Shown piece after piece: positions 4-12,042 of a DNA stretch of 20,975 bases (within the stretch, counting starts at the first letter, position 1; every line of letters starts with the position of its first letter). The notes below the pieces were generated by a model. It saw only the letters and a list, made by a program, of their open reading frames with translations. It was not told where the DNA came from and ran no database searches. This stretch comes from a virus: IMG/VR virus record IMGVR_UViG_3300005098_000247, positions 1-20,975 of that record, one strand, 5' to 3'. A program made the translations under genes and the position numbers.

Positions 4-375
4 ATGGCAAAGGTAAAGAAACTCACGCGGGATTACACGCCCGCGTTTGACCGTGGACTGAAGTTTCACGGCAAAGGTGAACCGCTTACCGTGACCGTGC
101 TCTGCGCGATTCCGCCTGATACTCTGGCCGCGATTGCCGAAGTTGAAGGCGTGACCATCAGTGACTACGATTCACGCGATGGCAAGCGCAAGCGAATCAG
201 TGGTGGCGGCATAGACGCGAGCGCGTTTGTGACCGGCCTACTGATTAACTACCTTGCCGAACGCGGCTGCGGCAAGCCCGTCAACCCGCGTGAAGCTTCT
301 GCTATCGTGACGCGAGCACGCGCGTTACACAAGGGCAGGACTCCCAACGCTAAGGCCATTCCCGCGAAATGGTAG
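4..375 (+). CDS. hypothetical protein (123 aa)
   Basis: I do not recognise this protein. The translation opens MAKVKKLTRDYTPAFDRG, is basic at the N-terminus and has mixed alpha/beta character with no signal peptide or membrane segment. The ATG lies three bases from the window edge, so its ribosome-binding site is not visible and a longer form starting upstream cannot be excluded. It overlaps the next gene by 7 nt, which implies translational coupling. The pair is closed by an intrinsic terminator at 574-611, so they form the end of an upstream operon. The function is unknown; only the coding call is reasonably secure. Confidence 0.7.
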   Translation: MAKVKKLTRDYTPAFDRGLKFHGKGEPLTVTVLCAIPPDTLAAIAEVEGVTISDYDSRDGKRKRISGGGIDASAFVTGLLINYLAERGCGKPVNPREASAIVTRARALHKGRTPNAKAIPAKW

Positions 376-566
376 ACACTTACGCGGCCTATGTGCGCGA
401 CTTAGCAGGCAAATGCCTGTCATATCTGCGCACATTGAATCGCGAGTGGCGCGAGTCCGATGTGCGCGAGTTCATTCGCGCACAAGACTCACCGCCATTC
501 ACGCTTACCGAGTTCACGGTCTGCGAGGTCTGCGAGGTCATCGCAGAATACGCCGACTTGAGCTAG
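369..566 (+). CDS. hypothetical protein (65 aa)
   Basis: This small acidic, probably helical protein starts inside the 3' end of the preceding gene (7-nt overlap). It has no Shine-Dalgarno site of its own, so translation is probably coupled. It contains a closely spaced cysteine pair in CEVCEV (about residues 51-54) near the C-terminus, but I see no full zinc-binding set. The stop codon lies 8 nt before an 11-bp terminator stem, consistent with the last gene of an operon. No family is recognised. Confidence 0.6.
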   Translation: MVDTYAAYVRDLAGKCLSYLRTLNREWRESDVREFIRAQDSPPFTLTEFTVCEVCEVIAEYADLS

Positions 567-573
567 GTTACTC

Positions 574-611
574 ATCCCGCGCCTGCGTGCTCAGGCGCGG
601 GATTTTTTTTT
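574..611 (+). terminator. intrinsic (rho-independent) terminator
   Basis: An uninterrupted 11-bp GC-rich stem pairs 575-585 with 592-602 around a 6-nt loop (586-591). It is followed at once by nine T residues (603-611). This is a textbook rho-independent terminator ending the operon of the two genes before it. It insulates the noncoding region downstream from read-through. Confidence 0.93.
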
Positions 612-793: not shown

Positions 794-914
794 AAAAAAA
801 AAGCGAGCGCGGTTTTGGACCTTTCTGTGAAGAGAGAAGAGAGAAGAGTGTTAAGAGAGTAGGGCCGACAATTACGACAAAGAGCGACATTACGATTATT
901 CAAAAAAAAAGCGA
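794..914. repeat. two perfect copies of a 13-mer (nine A then GCGA)
   Basis: The same 13 bases, nine adenines followed by GCGA, occur at 794-806 and 902-914, 108 bp apart. Between them the + strand is strongly purine-rich. A-tracts of this length bend DNA. The second copy ends 8 bp before the -35 box at 923, so it sits where an upstream promoter element would be. This may be part of an origin or a promoter control region; that role is inference. Confidence 0.5.
829..849. repeat. three tandem copies of a GAAGAGA-type 7-mer
   Basis: GAAGAGA is repeated at 829-835 and 836-842, with a third copy ending in T at 843-849. It lies in the purine-rich half of the noncoding region. It may be simple-sequence expansion or part of an origin-like element. 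Confidence 0.6.
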
Positions 915-922: not shown

Positions 923-950
923 TTGACAAGGGCGTAGGATATGTTATACT
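923..950 (+). promoter_or_regulatory. strong sigma70-type promoter for the candidate structured RNA
   Basis: A perfect TTGACA -35 box (923-928), a 16-bp spacer and a TATACT -10 box (945-950) preceded by TG at 942-943 form an extended -10 promoter. The predicted start is at or near G957, the first base of a long helix. The 9-mer TGTTATACT recurs at the promoter at 3628-3636. No convincing gene starts within the next 390 nt, so this promoter probably drives a noncoding RNA. Confidence 0.8.
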
Positions 951-956
951 TGGTAT

Positions 957-1186
957 GTGAGAGGCGGCAAGGTCAAGACGGGGAACGCGAACCGGGCAAA
1001 CAATCTCCTACCTGGTGAGCGAGCGCACACTTGTCTTGAGGGGGTCTCTCACAAAATATTTCCTTCTTCAATTTTGGCCTGGTCTGCGGCCTTGCACCAC
1101 GGCAAGTCGTGCGGATGTCAGCTGCGTATATTAGCAAGCGATGCGTACGAGGCGGCACGGTCAGGGCTGCGGGCCTCTTTGTTTTT
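957..1186 (+). ncRNA. candidate small structured RNA (about 230 nt), family unknown
   Basis: Three nested helices follow directly from the predicted transcription start. P1 pairs 956-965 with 1044-1053 (10 bp, one G-T). P2 pairs 973-982 with 1030-1039 (10 bp, two G-T). P3 pairs 986-996 with 1011-1021, with a symmetric tandem G-A mismatch (989-990 against 1017-1018) and a 14-nt loop. Smaller hairpins follow at 1053-1057/1071-1075 and 1091-1095/1102-1106, then a terminator-like stem with a T-rich tail at 1149-1186. It does not match any riboswitch, ribozyme, tmRNA, 6S or SRP signature that I can recognise. A GTG-started open frame overlaps it (957-1298) but its composition looks non-coding. The 3' end is uncertain; read-through to about 1330 is possible. 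The role is unknown: a regulatory, replication-control or packaging-type RNA are all open. Confidence 0.6.
1149..1186 (+). terminator. terminator-like hairpin with T-rich tail
   Basis: GAGGC at 1149-1153 pairs with GCCTC at 1173-1177, and GCA at 1155-1157 pairs with TGC at 1168-1170. The run TTTGTTTTT (1178-1186) follows directly. The stem is imperfect, so termination may be partial. This would set the 3' end of the candidate RNA begun at 957 while allowing some read-through into the gene at 1354. Confidence 0.55.
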
Positions 1187-2833: not shown

Positions 2834-3168
2834 TGAGATTCGGTTACGACCATGAAAACAAGCGACTGATGATTGTCTCCGAATGCGATGCCGATGTCGC
2901 CCAGATTGTGGGCGTCCACCACATGATGAATAATTTCAAGGCAAGCCACACATTCCAGATAAATCATGCTGAGAACATCTGGGGCGAGATGCAGCAGCAG
3001 GCCATCTTGGGCGTCCAGGCCACCGAGCAGGTAATTATAGTTCCGCCCAACGCAGATGCCGATAACGCTGCCAGAGAGATTGCGAAAAAGACTTTCGGGC
3101 CATTGTACGAAAACAAGGAGACAGAGACGGGAGGCGATAATAATGGCGAAAAGTCCAATGGCAGTTGA
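2833..3168 (+). CDS. hypothetical protein (111 aa)
   Basis: The start codon shares one base with the previous stop (TAATG), and GGAG at 2819-2822 is suitably placed upstream, so this start is preferred over the longer frame from 2770. The translation begins MRFGYDHENKRLMIVSE, has a central helical segment rich in His, Met and Gln, and ends in a low-complexity acidic and Asn/Gly tail. No family is recognised and there is no membrane segment. Its last 26 nt overlap the peptidase gene that follows. Confidence 0.65.
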   Translation: MRFGYDHENKRLMIVSECDADVAQIVGVHHMMNNFKASHTFQINHAENIWGEMQQQAILGVQATEQVIIVPPNADADNAAREIAKKTFGPLYENKETETGGDNNGEKSNGS

Positions 3169-3619
3169 CTGGTGTGCGTACTGGAGAGAGCTTGATGCCC
3201 TTTTGCAGGCTCACGGGATAGAACACTTCACTGCCCGCGAAGTGTCAAAGAACTCCATCAAGTTCATAGACGATGTGGCATACTTGAACCAGCCAGCCCC
3301 AAAGCAATACTGGCATAATTTCATTCTAACGCTCAAGGCCATGGAAGAACTTCGTAGCGCCATGGGTGGTCATCCGCTCTACGTCACCAGCGGCTATCGG
3401 TGCCCGAAGTACAACCGCGCCTGCGGCGGCGTGCCGAACTCCCAGCATCTCTATTGCCGCGCGGTCGATTTCTACAGTGCCCACGCCCAGCCGCATGAGC
3501 TGGCGGACATGCTTCACAGGTCTTTCCCGCATAGCGCGGGCATAGGCAAGTACCGGAACTTCACTCATTTCGATACGCGCGTGAAGAAGCAGCGTTGGCC
3601 CAAGAAACTGTGGTGGTAG
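3143..3619 (+). CDS. M15-family zinc peptidase, probable endolysin (158 aa)
   Basis: This is a D-Ala-D-Ala carboxypeptidase-like zinc enzyme (peptidase M15, close to the M15_3 group) that cuts peptide cross-links of peptidoglycan. The signature is complete: SGYRC at residues 83-87, SQHLYCRAVDF with zinc ligands His102 and Asp109 (H-x6-D), and THFD with His142 and Asp144. The closing Arg/Trp-rich segment is also typical. The length of 158 aa fits a single catalytic domain with no wall-binding domain. The ATG at 3143 is chosen because of GGGAGG at 3130-3135; a longer frame from 3056 lacks support. There is no signal peptide, so release would need a holin, which I do not see nearby. The place before the late genes suits a lysis enzyme, though a virion-borne role is possible. 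Confidence 0.85.
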   Translation: MAKSPMAVDWCAYWRELDALLQAHGIEHFTAREVSKNSIKFIDDVAYLNQPAPKQYWHNFILTLKAMEELRSAMGGHPLYVTSGYRCPKYNRACGGVPNSQHLYCRAVDFYSAHAQPHELADMLHRSFPHSAGIGKYRNFTHFDTRVKKQRWPKKLWW

Positions 3620-5420: not shown

Positions 5421-5441
5421 GGGGAATGGAGGTTGTCTTCT

Positions 5442-5900
5442 GTGCGGGGCAAAACGGCTGAGGCCAAACCCGGTCAGGGAAGACCGATAGAGCCGGTCGC
5501 GCCTATTGCCCCAGGAGACCAGCTACCCTTCTACGTCAACACCTGCACCTTCGGGGGCTACGCTCTTACGGAGCCGAAGCGGAAGTTCACGCGGGCTGGA
5601 ACCGAATACGCTTACGTTCCCCTTTTGCAGTACAGCAGCGGACAGCGCCGCAAGGACGGTCGCAGGCCGCATCAAATCATAACGGTGCAAGCCTACCAGC
5701 CAACTGCCATTGAGCGTCTCATGGAAATCAAGAAGGGCGAAGCTTTCATCGCCATCGGCAGGCTGGTTGTGCCGTACGGCTTCGGCATCCAGCTCGTTGG
5801 CGGAGACAGCGTTCAGCTCATCGCGCATTATATAAACTCGGTCAAGGCCAAGGACGTTGAACCTCGGAAGTGGGTCAGTTATGGTGGAAAGCGCAACTAA
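5442..5900 (+). CDS. putative OB-fold single-stranded-DNA-binding-like protein (152 aa)
   Basis: The middle of the protein follows the strand order of SSB-type OB folds. An opening NTCTFGGYAL is followed by a turn with PKRKFTRAGTEYAYVPLLQY, then IITVQAYQPTAIERLMEIKKG and FIAIGRLVVP, as in the Ae-x-l-KKG-x-x-v-x-GRL segment of bacterial SSBs. Residues 1-25 are a Pro-rich, flexible lead and the end is basic. There is no acidic SSB tip. GTG at 5442 is favoured because GGAGG at 5428-5432 is 9 nt upstream; a TTG at 5433 would sit directly on the ribosome-binding site. Its last 20 nt overlap the terminase gene. The role is probably in DNA replication or recombination. The fold call is by eye. Confidence 0.45.
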   Translation: MRGKTAEAKPGQGRPIEPVAPIAPGDQLPFYVNTCTFGGYALTEPKRKFTRAGTEYAYVPLLQYSSGQRRKDGRRPHQIITVQAYQPTAIERLMEIKKGEAFIAIGRLVVPYGFGIQLVGGDSVQLIAHYINSVKAKDVEPRKWVSYGGKRN

Positions 5901-7590
5901 CGCCGTAGAGCCGGTTATTGAGAAGATGACCAGCCAACCTGGTCTGCGCAACACCGTTGACCTTCCCGGCTACGACCCTATGGCAACGCCCAGCAAGAAG
6001 ATGCAGGAAGAGCTCTTTGAGCTGTTCAAGAAGCATCCATGGTACTGGCTGAGTTCCGGTCTGATATATACGCGAGACGACAACGAAGAGGACGATTCCA
6101 AGGCTATCAAGAAATTCCCGCACGAGCTGGCTTACCTGAAGATAGCTACGCACATCTGGGTGCAGTACAACATGACGCTGTGGCAGAAATCGCGGCAGCT
6201 TCTCATGTCGTACTTGTTCTCGTTCCTGTACGACTGGCAGGCGTGCTTCAAGACTTCACGCACAACCCATCTTATCTCGCGCAACGCCGAGGACTCCCAG
6301 TATCAGCTAATGCGCATCAAATGGATGCACGAGATGTTGCCGGAATGGGTTACCGAAAGATTGCCACACGTTGAGTTTCTTGAGAAATCAATACAGTACT
6401 GGCATTATAAGCCCAATGACAAGAAGCTGAAACGCCCTCACGTCCAGGATTCGCTGATACGGGCGATGAGCGAGGATAGCTCAGCGCCCCGCAGCCGCAC
6501 GCCGTCAGGGACATTTGCCGACGAGATGGCGCACCTGAAGCCTACTAGATGCACCAAGCTCGTTCGCGCGGCTCTCCCGTCTTTGCAGAAAGGAGCGAAG
6601 TTCACAGGCGTGACTTCCGTGAACGAGCGCGGGGATTGGTTCCGGCTCTTTTATAGCCTCAAAGTGGGGCAGCATGATGTCCCAAAGAAGCTCTACCGGC
6701 ACAGGCTGCGGAAGGGCATGAGCATATTCAAGAATAACCGCGGCTGGTATTGCATTGAGCTGCACCATACGGCTGACCCCAACAAGCAAAAGGATAGTCC
6801 TTGGTATAAGCGTGAGCGCAAGAAATACTCCGAAGAAGACTGGGCCCAGGAAATGGACATGTCCACGCTGCCAGTGCATGATAAAGGCGTCGCGTACTTC
6901 AACGTGTTCCAGAAATCCATGCACGTCACCGAGGAGACTTTTGATACGGAAGACGTGGCTGCGCTCGTCCGCGGCTGGGACTTTGGCTTTGGCTTTCCGG
7001 TATGCCTCTTCGTTCTGTGGCTGACGGACGGCTCGCTGTATTGCTTTGACGAACTGAGGGGCAAGAATGAAGTCACACAGCGCTATGCCATGCGGGTATT
7101 CGCACAGACGAACCTCTCAATGACCTATGTGCTGCCGGACTACAGCCCCAATAATCCTTTGCCGACGAACGTTGTCTATGACTGGGGTGACGCAGAGGGC
7201 AAGCAAACCGACAGCACAAGCGGCACGACAGATATAGACACCATTTACGATAATTTCAAGGTCAACATCATTCCGGTCGGCGGCGTTCTCGCTGAACGCC
7301 TGAAGAGCATCAACGATAGGCTTATTATGCTGATTGACGATAAGCCCTCTCTGCGTATTCATCCACGCTGCAAAATACTCATTGAGGGGCTGCACGCCGG
7401 TTATCGCAGCCGCGACGACGGGCGCGTGCTGAAAGATGGGCTTTATGACCATTACATCGATGCACTGAGCTGTCTTACGATGGGCGTGGAGCGCCAGGGA
7501 CACGCCCCGCAGGGCTTCGACCCCTATGCCCAACAGATAGAACAGGGCATGGATGTCGGGCAAGAGGTGGGAGGTTACCGCTTTGACTGA
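5881..7590 (+). CDS. terL: terminase large subunit (569 aa)
   Basis: This is the packaging motor: an N-terminal ATPase and a C-terminal RNase H-like nuclease that cuts the concatemer. The Walker A-like segment is KSRQLLMS at residues 103-110, degenerate because the usual G-K-S/T is missing. Walker B is TFADEMAH with Asp214/Glu215. The nuclease triad is Asp367 in GWDFGFG, Asp420 in LPDYSPN and Asp527 in DHYIDALSC. The length is typical for the family. ATG 5881 is chosen; a TTG at 5857 would add eight residues. The gene overlaps the preceding reading frame by 20 nt and the portal gene by 8 nt. It is followed by portal, scaffold and capsid as expected in a head module. Confidence 0.93.
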   Translation: MVESATNAVEPVIEKMTSQPGLRNTVDLPGYDPMATPSKKMQEELFELFKKHPWYWLSSGLIYTRDDNEEDDSKAIKKFPHELAYLKIATHIWVQYNMTLWQKSRQLLMSYLFSFLYDWQACFKTSRTTHLISRNAEDSQYQLMRIKWMHEMLPEWVTERLPHVEFLEKSIQYWHYKPNDKKLKRPHVQDSLIRAMSEDSSAPRSRTPSGTFADEMAHLKPTRCTKLVRAALPSLQKGAKFTGVTSVNERGDWFRLFYSLKVGQHDVPKKLYRHRLRKGMSIFKNNRGWYCIELHHTADPNKQKDSPWYKRERKKYSEEDWAQEMDMSTLPVHDKGVAYFNVFQKSMHVTEETFDTEDVAALVRGWDFGFGFPVCLFVLWLTDGSLYCFDELRGKNEVTQRYAMRVFAQTNLSMTYVLPDYSPNNPLPTNVVYDWGDAEGKQTDSTSGTTDIDTIYDNFKVNIIPVGGVLAERLKSINDRLIMLIDDKPSLRIHPRCKILIEGLHAGYRSRDDGRVLKDGLYDHYIDALSCLTMGVERQGHAPQGFDPYAQQIEQGMDVGQEVGGYRFD

Positions 7591-9448
7591 AACCGAGAAT
7601 AGATACATGATTGAAAAACGCGCGCGTGCTGCACTTGAACAACTGAAGTCTGTGCGGGAGCCCAAAGAGGCGGAATGGAAGCGGTTGCAACTACATGCCG
7701 ACGGGCGTGTTCCGATTTCTCCCAAGACGCCGCACCAGGCAAAGTCCCAAACTTCGCAGCTCTCAATTACAGGCTATCGGCTCGCGCGCCACGTGCAGCG
7801 CATATATACCGATACCGAGGCGCGCATGCGCTTTGCGACCAACTCTCCGATTATGGGCGAGGATGTGCAGTCGTCGCTGAAGCTGCTGGTTGAATACTGG
7901 CTCAACGAGAACAAGTTCCGGCGCATGCTGCCGAAGATTGTCAAGAGCGCGTATTTCTCAAGCTATTATGTCCTGCGCGTTTTCCCTGACCCGATGTTCA
8001 AGCGCCGTCCCGTTGTAACAGAGGTTCCGGCGCTGAAAGACGTTGTGCCCCGGGGCTTCGGCTACGAGGTGAGCTACCAGATGGTGCCGGGTATCCGCAT
8101 CAGCCACATCAGCCCGTACGATTTCTGGGTTAGCAACGATGGCGCACTGCGAGTCTGCCGATATGTTATGAGCCCACAGCAGTTTCTGGAATACGCCTCG
8201 GGTTACCTCAAGGCAGCAGGCATTGATATTAGTGATATTGTGAAAGAGCTTGAGCTGAACCGACCAAAGGCTGACGATAGCATCCAGGGCTTGGAGCCCA
8301 CGGCACGCGACGAGGCCCTTGGCCTGACGAACGTGTATTACGCGGGCGGCGCGCCTGTGCAGCTCTTTCATTTTGAGGGAAACATATCCGGTCTTACGGG
8401 CGACAACGAGCATGTCGGCGCAGCAATGACCTTAGTGCAAATCAAGGGCGGCAGGTTGCGCATGATAGAACCTCCCGCGCCCAGGCCATACTGGGATGGA
8501 AGTGCGAGCGATTATGTTTACGGCACGCCATTCATTGAGGATTTCACGCCGTATCCGCGTTCGCTGTTCTCAGATTACAGGCCATACGCGCAACACCAGG
8601 CAGAACTTTATAACCTCGTGCTGGACGGAACGGGGATTAGGGTAATGCCACCACATGAACTTGACCCAAGGCTCTGGGGTGACCCGAAACATCCAGGGCC
8701 CTCCACGCGCTACCTGTGGCCAGGCAGGCCCTTGCTAAATACTAGAATCGGAGAAGGTCGCAAGGTGGCCGAATACATGAAAATTCCCGAAATGCCGCCT
8801 TCCGTGCTGCAAGTCTATGAGGGGATAGACCGCAAGCTGCAGGAGCTTACCGTGAACGAGCTGACCCAGGGCCTTCCCACGGCAAAGGGCAGACCGACCG
8901 CCACAGAGCTGTCGCTCAAGTCCGGTTACACCAACGAGAATCGCCTGGATTATGTTGAGACAATTGAGGAAAGCCTCATTGAGCCGCTCATTCTAAAGCT
9001 CGTCGCACTCATCGCCCAGTTCCAGTACGATTTTACATCAGACCCGGACATGCTTCAGCTCCTGGGTGAGAAGAGATGTCATCAGCTTGACCAACTGAAA
9101 ACGGACGAACGTATCAAGATTGCACAGGCGACCCGCTCAATCGGTGTGACCGCCATGGCGGAGACTGCGCGGTCACAGGATAACCTCCAGGCACTGATGG
9201 CCTTGCTGGGTGCTATCAGCAAGCTACCGAAAGAGGCACTGGAGATGGTGGCGACGAAGAAAACCAAAATTGACCTTGCTGAGTTCGTTGCCTTGGCACT
9301 GGACTCAATGCCGTTTGATACCACCAAGCTCGTCAGTTACGAACAGGAAGCACCTCCAAATCTCATTGAGCAGGTGATGCGCGCGCGCGAGGCGTCGGGC
9401 GGCATGGAGGAACTCACCAAGAGCGTGGTCTCGGGCGCTATGGTATAA
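7583..9448 (+). CDS. portal protein (621 aa)
   Basis: This is the dodecameric vertex through which DNA enters and leaves the head. The size, position directly after the terminase, and helical C-terminal crown segment support the call. The run TAKGRPTATELSLKSG (about residues 432-447) followed by ENRLDYVETIEESLIEPLI is the typical clip and stem helix region of podovirus portals. The N-terminal part (about 1-130) is helical and the middle is mixed. TTG 7583 is the likely start, with GGGAGG at 7569-7574 eight bases upstream; the longer ATG frame at 7553 lacks a comparable site. The start overlaps the terminase end by 8 nt. The long tail beyond residue 500 is helical and Ala/Glu-rich. Confidence 0.88.
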   Translation: MTETENRYMIEKRARAALEQLKSVREPKEAEWKRLQLHADGRVPISPKTPHQAKSQTSQLSITGYRLARHVQRIYTDTEARMRFATNSPIMGEDVQSSLKLLVEYWLNENKFRRMLPKIVKSAYFSSYYVLRVFPDPMFKRRPVVTEVPALKDVVPRGFGYEVSYQMVPGIRISHISPYDFWVSNDGALRVCRYVMSPQQFLEYASGYLKAAGIDISDIVKELELNRPKADDSIQGLEPTARDEALGLTNVYYAGGAPVQLFHFEGNISGLTGDNEHVGAAMTLVQIKGGRLRMIEPPAPRPYWDGSASDYVYGTPFIEDFTPYPRSLFSDYRPYAQHQAELYNLVLDGTGIRVMPPHELDPRLWGDPKHPGPSTRYLWPGRPLLNTRIGEGRKVAEYMKIPEMPPSVLQVYEGIDRKLQELTVNELTQGLPTAKGRPTATELSLKSGYTNENRLDYVETIEESLIEPLILKLVALIAQFQYDFTSDPDMLQLLGEKRCHQLDQLKTDERIKIAQATRSIGVTAMAETARSQDNLQALMALLGAISKLPKEALEMVATKKTKIDLAEFVALALDSMPFDTTKLVSYEQEAPPNLIEQVMRAREASGGMEELTKSVVSGAMV

Positions 9449-10623: not shown

Positions 10624-11595
10624 TTGGCTATTCCAAGCTGGGTAGACAGTTCAGCAACCGTTACGCAGCCCATACTCACCCCGAAGGTCTGGCACGCAGC
10701 GCGGCGTCAAGCTATATGTGACAGGTATACGACGGCGCTGTCTGGCGCGCAGGGCAAGAACAAGGGCGATACGTTCTATCACACGTGGTACGGACGTGTA
10801 GCTGGTGACACCGGACCGATTGCGGAGAAGAGCCTCGTTCCTCAGTCAAACGTGACGCCGACACAAGTCGCCATCACAATCGATGAGTACGGACGCGCTT
10901 TCCCGTGGACGGCCAAGTTTGAAGACCTGGCCCGCATCTCCATCAAGACTGGATTGGGCAAGGTTCTCAAAAACCACTACGCGGAAACCATTGATAACTT
11001 GGCGGGCGCGGCTTTCGTAGCTGCGGCTACAAAGATTATCCCGACAGGCACCGATGCGGCTCCCACTATCACGTTTGAATCGCCCCTTGCTACTGACGCC
11101 ACACGCAACATTCAGGCTGGTGACTTCATCAAGATTCGTGAAGGGCTGGAAATGACGTACTTCGCCGACCCCTTCCCTGATGGCAGCTATGTGACGTTCT
11201 TGAACTCACATGGCCTGAAGGGCCTCAAGGAGTCTGCGTTGTGGCAGAACATTCAGCTCTACATCAATCAGACGAAGGAGCAGAGCGGGCTTACAACTGG
11301 CTACATCGGGAAACTCGACAACTTCCACATCTTCGGTACGAACAACACGACCGTTTTCCCGAACTTGTCAGGAACAGGGTCCGAAAACTCTCTGCCGCCA
11401 ACTCAGGGTGTAGTGTTTGGACCGGAGGCGGTTTTCAAGGCGACGGCCAAGGGCTTCCGCATTGTGCCTAAAATTCCGACGGACTACGGACGCGACAAGG
11501 GTATCGCGTGGCTGTGGCTCGGTGGATACGCACAGAGGTACAAACTCTCTACTCCGTATCTGTCCGGGTGTTTCCACATCACGTCTAAATCGTAG
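10624..11595 (+). CDS. major capsid protein (323 aa, HK97-fold, N4 gp56-like)
   Basis: The protein forms the icosahedral shell. Evidence is the position after the scaffold-like gene, the typical length, and sequence of the kind seen in N4 gp56-type major capsid proteins. An N-terminal arm (about 1-45) leads to an E-loop-like stretch KNKGDTFYHTWYGRVAG (about 46-62), then a spine-helix region after DEYGRAFPWTAKFEDLARIS, and C-terminal A-domain strands (GIAWLWLGGYAQRY). The start is TTG 10624, with AAGGAG at 10609-10614 nine bases upstream and no ATG near the N-terminus. No proteolytic maturation site is evident. I am confident of the role and less so of the exact family. Confidence 0.85.
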   Translation: MAIPSWVDSSATVTQPILTPKVWHAARRQAICDRYTTALSGAQGKNKGDTFYHTWYGRVAGDTGPIAEKSLVPQSNVTPTQVAITIDEYGRAFPWTAKFEDLARISIKTGLGKVLKNHYAETIDNLAGAAFVAAATKIIPTGTDAAPTITFESPLATDATRNIQAGDFIKIREGLEMTYFADPFPDGSYVTFLNSHGLKGLKESALWQNIQLYINQTKEQSGLTTGYIGKLDNFHIFGTNNTTVFPNLSGTGSENSLPPTQGVVFGPEAVFKATAKGFRIVPKIPTDYGRDKGIAWLWLGGYAQRYKLSTPYLSGCFHITSKS

Positions 11596-11610: not shown

Positions 11611-12042
11611 ATGGGCGTTTATTCTAGAGAACGCTACCAGATGATGCAGGAGTACTGGTGCCCCGTCGCGGTCGACCTCAGCGCATCTGCCACAGACCCT
11701 GTTTGGGTGATGGATGCAGCCGCCATGCTTTCGGTGGACGGCGACATCATCATTACAGATTTCATTTCGCTGGCAGCTACCGAGGCGGTCGGAGACGCGA
11801 CTACACCTGGCGTTGTTTCCCTGGAGTACGGTGGTTCCGAAAAGGCCACCATAAGCTGGGACAACAAGGTTATAGGCACGGTGCTGAAAGCCTCTATGAC
11901 CAACCTCGAAGTGGAGGCTGGCACGATGATTGAGTTGATTCACAAGACTCAGGCATCGGGCGGCACCACTACGGGCATCGTCTACATGGGGTTCACGTAC
12001 GTCATCTGCGCTGGTCAGGATTATGACCAGTTGGGTACGTAG
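11611..12042 (+). CDS. putative head decoration or minor capsid protein (143 aa)
   Basis: This protein has a strong GGAGG site (11600-11604) and lies just 15 nt after the capsid stop, so it is probably made at high level with it. It looks all-beta with an Ala/Thr/Gly-rich composition (DGDIIITDFISLAATEAVGD, ISWDNKVIGTVLKAS). Two Cys are present. Capsid cement or decoration proteins are commonly small beta proteins encoded next to the major capsid gene, which supports the call. A tail-related role cannot be excluded. A stable hairpin follows its stop. Confidence 0.55.
   Translation: MGVYSRERYQMMQEYWCPVAVDLSASATDPVWVMDAAAMLSVDGDIIITDFISLAATEAVGDATTPGVVSLEYGGSEKATISWDNKVIGTVLKASMTNLEVEAGTMIELIHKTQASGGTTTGIVYMGFTYVICAGQDYDQLGT

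Follow-up and report, generated by a model that had tools for sequence, protein, structure and literature searches.

Within the window analysed here, i.e. an entire IMG/VR virus record of 20,975 bases, the + strand segment at 957-1186 is best read as specifying a base-pairing small RNA which doubles as the first, terminated transcript of a late-block promoter, as in the PR'-tR' units of lambdoid phages (StxS), a reading to which we assign a probability of roughly 40 %. Host RNA polymerase would start at about position 957 from a strong sigma-70-type promoter and stop at an intrinsic terminator ending at 1186. The product would be a stable untranslated RNA of ~230 nt, with its 5' end locked in a 97-nt hairpin that is followed by a single-stranded A/U- and pyrimidine-rich linker, a 3' terminator rod and a U tail. 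The exposed UCUCCU loop and the UUUCCUUCUUC linker would pair with regions around the translation starts of mRNAs from host or phage, and later read-through would give a long transcript of the lysis and particle genes, as in PR'-tR'. Since 923-950 is the only strong promoter ahead of the lysis and particle block, transcription from it probably yields the RNA as a first, terminated product as well; an independent small RNA and a terminated leader of the downstream operon are compatible, and both can be true.

The preliminary description had read the region as a structured RNA with its own promoter. The strong promoter, the structured non-coding segment, the terminator, the missing coding signal and the missing Rfam family of that reading all stand, while its chance argument is overstated for the first helix, P1, taken alone.

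The transcription unit and its surroundings

The promoter proposed earlier (TTGACA, a 16-bp spacer and TATACT with TG ahead) is present with 11 of 12 matches. In a weight-matrix scan of both strands of the record it ranks first at 16.4 bits, the next site reaching 13.5, and no comparable promoter occurs elsewhere in the record; it was scored as a sigma-70-type promoter. The A9 tract upstream (Table 1) appears to sit where an UP element would be. Of note, an exact 13-nt repeat, AAAAAAAAAGCGA, is found at 794-806 and 902-914, 108 bases apart, the second copy occupying the UP-element position, and ATTACGAC/ATTACGAT repeats are found near 872 and 889. A repeated phage-specific promoter motif was sought, and none was seen.

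The terminator said to end at 1186 turned out better than described, as it is formed by a 14-bp stem (1081-1094/1162-1175), with a pairing probability of at least 0.98 in the ensemble, and not by the weak local hairpin at 1164-1176. Runs with at least nine T in 11 positions exist at just two + strand places in the record, i.e. 1176-1186 and the upstream terminator at 601. When 131 sequences (1.09 Mb, consisting of the window and 130 loci from divergent phages) were searched strictly for a promoter followed by a terminator, the 923-1186 cassette was the sole return. Taken together, the promoter, the T-tract after a 14-bp stem and the uniqueness of the cassette make it quite likely that 957-1186 is a real, discrete transcript of ~230 nt. 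A further strong hairpin, GGGGGUCAUGAUGGGCCACCGCCCGGCGUGGCCCCCC (1288-1323, -28.6 kcal/mol), lies just 5' of the gene at 1354 and has no clear U-tract.

Table 1. Features of the window, listed by position
Feature	Position	Strand	Remarks
Two small upstream genes	4-375, 369-566	+	
Intrinsic terminator closing the upstream gene pair	574-603	+	12-bp stem, 8 T
A9 tract	902-910	+	-55 to -47 of predicted start; direct reading
Sigma-70-type promoter, extended -10 (TG)	923-950	+	TTGACA 923-928, TATACT 945-950
P1, 5' arm and 3' arm	956-965, 1044-1053	+	10 bp; pairing probability 0.98-1.0
Predicted untranslated RNA	957-1186	+	about 230 nt; start and end predicted
15-nt repeat, copy 1, GAGGCGGCAAGGTCA	961-975	+	in 5' arms of P1/P2
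P2, 5' arm and 3' arm	973-982, 1030-1039	+	pairing probability about 0.7
P3, 5' arm and 3' arm	986-996, 1011-1021	+	pairing probability 0.87-1.0
Apical loop CAAACAAUCUCCUA	997-1010	+	unpaired 0.98; anti-Shine-Dalgarno-like, candidate base-pairing seed
Single-stranded linker AAAAUAUUUCCUUCUUCAAUUUU	1053-1075	+	unpaired 0.92; candidate second seed and Hfq-type A/U-rich site
3' rod, predicted terminator stem	1081-1175	+	14-bp stem, structured 67-nt interior
15-nt repeat, copy 2, GAGGCGGCACGGTCA	1149-1163	+	14/15 match; near 3' end of terminator rod
U-tract of predicted terminator, TCTTTGTTTTT	1176-1186	+	directly after the 14-bp stem
Small unknown proteins, start of same-strand block 3' of the RNA	first gene at 1354	+	
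Endolysin	3143-3619	+	phrog_894, E 9e-24
Terminase	about 5881-7590	+	
Portal	7553-9448	+	
Capsid (major head protein)	10624-11595	+	

According to the ORF list of the record, the trusted main genes all lie on the + strand, and their order runs from the upstream terminator through the promoter-RNA-terminator unit to endolysin, terminase, portal and capsid. Family searches found no match to a known protein family for the two upstream genes, and the predicted terminator behind them isolates the RNA unit from upstream transcription. It is followed by ~750 bases without convincing genes, with the RNA unit at the end of this gene-poor stretch. The intergenic part at 604-790 is strongly C-skewed (GC skew down to -0.44) and carries several CCGCCAC-type units, after which the sequence turns abruptly purine-rich near 790; it is a possible protein-binding or origin region. 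Downstream, the AlphaFold2 model of the 1720-2619 protein was too poor in quality for use, and a 155-aa protein at 5433-5900 resembles a single-stranded DNA-binding protein by eye, with no convincing library match.

Coding potential, fold and exposed stretches

In agreement with the earlier view that no convincing reading frame explains the region, the overlapping + strand frames score at the non-coding level. With a codon table built from 25 genes of the phage, genes reach 0.14 to 0.35 bits per codon and wrong frames average -0.18, the scores here being -0.15 (-0.154) for 957-1298, -0.19 for 1109-1360 and -0.08 for 1141-1329. None of the frames tested matched a protein family, and the segment 957-1186 is best read as non-coding.

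The helices P1, P2 and P3 of the preliminary description are all present, and the tandem G-A mismatch of P3 (989-990 opposite 1017-1018) is legible directly in the sequence. For P2 there is a competing register, i.e. 968-972/1034-1038 plus 974-977/1030-1033, with a probability of about 0.27 versus 0.71 for the pairing first described. The helices rest on single-sequence thermodynamics with moderate z-scores: minimum-energy folding of 957-1186 against shuffled controls, the check suggested earlier, gave z = -2.67 (3/200 shuffles), which is moderately unusual only. The 5' domain (956-1053) reached z = -2.90 (1/200) and the 3' rod (1081-1176) z = -3.75 (0/200), the borders of both having been set post hoc. 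By direct search, 5.1 % of shuffles contained a helix of at least 9-10 bp that begins at the predicted start, as did 3.3 % when their minimum-energy folds were examined, and an equally long helix at the start was found in 1.8 % of the record's 230-nt windows, or 1.0 % if the domain spans at most 120 nt. Therefore, the statement that the nested helices are unlikely by chance was overstated for P1 alone, because a helix at the start arises in about 2-5 % of controls. Sliding 100-nt windows did not single out the 957-1186 region, as 351-600, inside genes, folds more strongly, and coding windows of this phage match or exceed the RNA region in folding strength. An RNA structure for 957-1186 is thus a plausible model. 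The stretch at 351-600, within and between the two upstream genes, shows unusually strong folding on both strands (z about -2.8 to -5.2) and contains many GCGCGAG-like words.

The apical loop and the linker are the two longest unpaired stretches in the predicted ensemble, and their pairing with the Shine-Dalgarno sequence amounts to -9.0 and -7.4 kcal/mol, respectively. None of 600 whole-RNA shuffles matched both anti-Shine-Dalgarno-like unpaired stretches, a generous control because shuffling destroys the A/U-rich linker; the fairer within-stretch shuffle gave 1.6 % for the loop (p about 0.016) and 4.3 % for the linker (p about 0.04), for an idea that was formed after the sequence was seen. 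Duplexes between the linker and gene starts of this phage have a mean of -11.9 against a background mean of -10.0 (sd 3.1), so close to background that no specific target emerges, and no phage target rose above background in the window. At the level of sequence the segment is a discrete non-coding unit with its own promoter and intrinsic terminator, and a base-pairing function may tentatively be proposed for it, at somewhat less than even odds. The U tail and the A/U-rich linker are suggestive hints at Hfq or ProQ binding. It is tempting to speculate further that an RNA with two anti-Shine-Dalgarno stretches might block translation starts in general and thereby dampen translation in the host or of early phage genes, with the same promoter awaiting the antitermination that opens the late operon, although we consider this very unlikely.

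Relatives and alternative readings

Likewise, the earlier statement that no known RNA family is recognizable held, since Rfam returned 0 matches at the gathering threshold and chance-level ones only at E up to 10. No homologue was found in GenBank phages, plasmids, E. coli genomes, IMG/VR, GTDB genome contigs or Rfam; BLASTN gave no match in 50,697 phage records and none in E. coli genomes at E up to 1. In the plasmid collection, BLASTN returned one 53-nt match of 81 % in Aeromonas, on the opposite strand of a GlgC-like (ADP-glucose pyrophosphorylase) frame, which was rejected as chance because of its E value of 0.009, the broken frame and the lack of any E. coli match. Used as a motif, the 15-nt repeat matched 63 IMG/VR contigs, none of them related, and a 21-mer of the 5' arm matched three genome contigs, which were read as chance because each match lies under a long open frame and lacks the fold. 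The single-sequence covariance models R1 and R2 found the window itself only, the best other R2 match having E = 0.15, and R1 gave no convincing match over 21 whole records.

The phage itself is very divergent. Terminase and capsid peptides, searched as single proteins in IMG/VR, gave no matches, and alignment-based and motif scans of IMG/VR and GTDB genome contigs yielded distant phages only, at 22-51 % identity over short or long segments and mostly at 25-30 % over the capsid protein. Because such scans depend on short exact stretches, they would miss moderately diverged relatives; very near records may also be left out. The similarity of the distant loci is to the terminase, the portal, the capsid, one small adjacent protein or, in three chance-motif loci, the endolysin, and the best two relatives (L120 and L071) showed no match to the RNA. 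The small protein after the capsid gene (11611-12042) has about 45 % identity to one in the IMG/VR contig L120, and no further exact match to the motif HKTQASGGTTTG was found among 2.9 million viral contigs. Because it is one sequence without comparative support, the 957-1186 RNA is a lead and not a result.

Among the other readings of the region, an unlikely one sees 957-1350 as only a cis-acting 5' leader of the operon starting at 1354, in which the hairpins attenuate or control transcription, read-through is decided by a phage protein or by the RNA, and the short RNA does nothing by itself. The predicted terminator does lie between the only strong promoter and the same-strand gene block. 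In addition, the 15-nt repeat, whose quality was equalled in 3/1000 shuffles, could let the 5' region compete with the 3' arm of the terminator, and GCAAGGUC at 967-974 can pair with GGCCUUGC at 1088-1095. However, forcing this antiterminator pairing costs 11 kcal/mol (-80.0 vs -91.0), a sigma-dependent pause element is absent and no known antiterminator was identified upstream. Given this cost, there is no two-state RNA switch without help, and a switch between terminator and antiterminator made by the RNA alone was rejected on energetic grounds. Rather unlikely, too, is that promoter and terminator are real and the fold in between is incidental, leaving a plain spacer transcript without structural importance. 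The z-score of the whole RNA, the chance rate of P1, the equally strong folding of genes of the same phage and the fact that no covariation is available all point that way, while the structure is favoured by two independent domains that each fold better than almost every shuffle and line up with the predicted start and the U-tract.

Far less can be said for a small protein (encoded by a GTG frame at 957-1298, or by 1141-1329) or a decayed coding sequence. Open frames exist, and the 53-nt match falls inside the Aeromonas GlgC-like frame on its opposite strand, but the non-coding codon scores, the lack of family matches, the absence by eye of a ribosome site ahead of 957 and the chance character of that frame-breaking match make such a product highly improbable. 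It is just as hard to credit that the inverted repeat TGTGAGAG...CTCTCACA forms DNA operator half-sites, with a repressor looping the start region, instead of an RNA helix: the arms are near-perfect and one half-site overlaps the predicted start, yet they stand 78 bp apart and enclose further helices that operators do not need.

Comparison with known systems

With bacterial 6S RNA (RF00013), the predicted RNA shares the character of a long, rod-like and stable RNA; in contrast to it, two separate domains are found here and not one rod with a central bubble, and no Rfam match was obtained even at E = 10. The anatomy of base-pairing small RNAs comprises a 5' hairpin, an A/U-rich linker and a terminator with a U tail. 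Those with pyrimidine-rich anti-Shine-Dalgarno seeds combine the 5' hairpin with exposed CU-rich stretches, the A/U-rich linker, the 3' terminator and the U tail, as is the case here, although no sequence relative was found.

The put RNA of phage HK022 is about 70 nt long, forms two adjacent stem-loops near the transcript start and suppresses downstream pausing and termination via the beta-prime zinc-binding domain (PMC9378689). Here as there, a structured RNA would stand at the transcription start just 3' of a phage promoter. However, the fold of 957-1186 does not consist of two adjacent stem-loops within about 70 nt but of one 97-nt hairpin, a 28-nt linker and a terminator rod, and put is not itself terminator-ended.

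The lambdoid PR'-tR' units (lambda 6S RNA, StxS) combine a strong host-type promoter with a short terminated transcript, as predicted here with 230 nt, against about 190 nt in lambda. The layout also agrees, i.e. a sigma-70 promoter, a terminator within a few hundred bases and lysis and morphogenesis genes located 3', except that other genes intervene here between the RNA and the endolysin. In Stx phages, the PR'-tR' transcript is processed to the regulatory base-pairing RNA StxS (PMC7873438). Control of the Q type requires a -10-like pause element, and the Q21 binding site follows the rule of a 6-bp direct repeat (PMC6606751). A search after the predicted start gave no -10-like sigma-dependent pause element (best 0.9 bits at -2, next -0.42 at +12), no 6-bp direct repeat of the Q21 kind was seen by eye in the promoter spacer, and no Q-like gene was recognized in the record, which may be a fragment, so that a Q gene could lie outside it. 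Since no Q-type pause site was found, membership in the PR'-tR'/Q system is not claimed. By analogy, the RNA unit may nonetheless work like a PR'-tR' system; regulated read-through from the 923-950 promoter, in turn, is possible but doubtful.

Beyond the lambdoid and other model groups, phages with known small RNAs are few. If transcribed, the 957-1186 segment would provide one from a deeply divergent phage line, without a sequence relative in the collections searched. Probably, it is a phage small RNA or terminated leader of an ordinary type in a very divergent phage, and its transcription would mean that phages well outside the lambdoid group also use a short terminated RNA in front of their lysis and morphogenesis genes.
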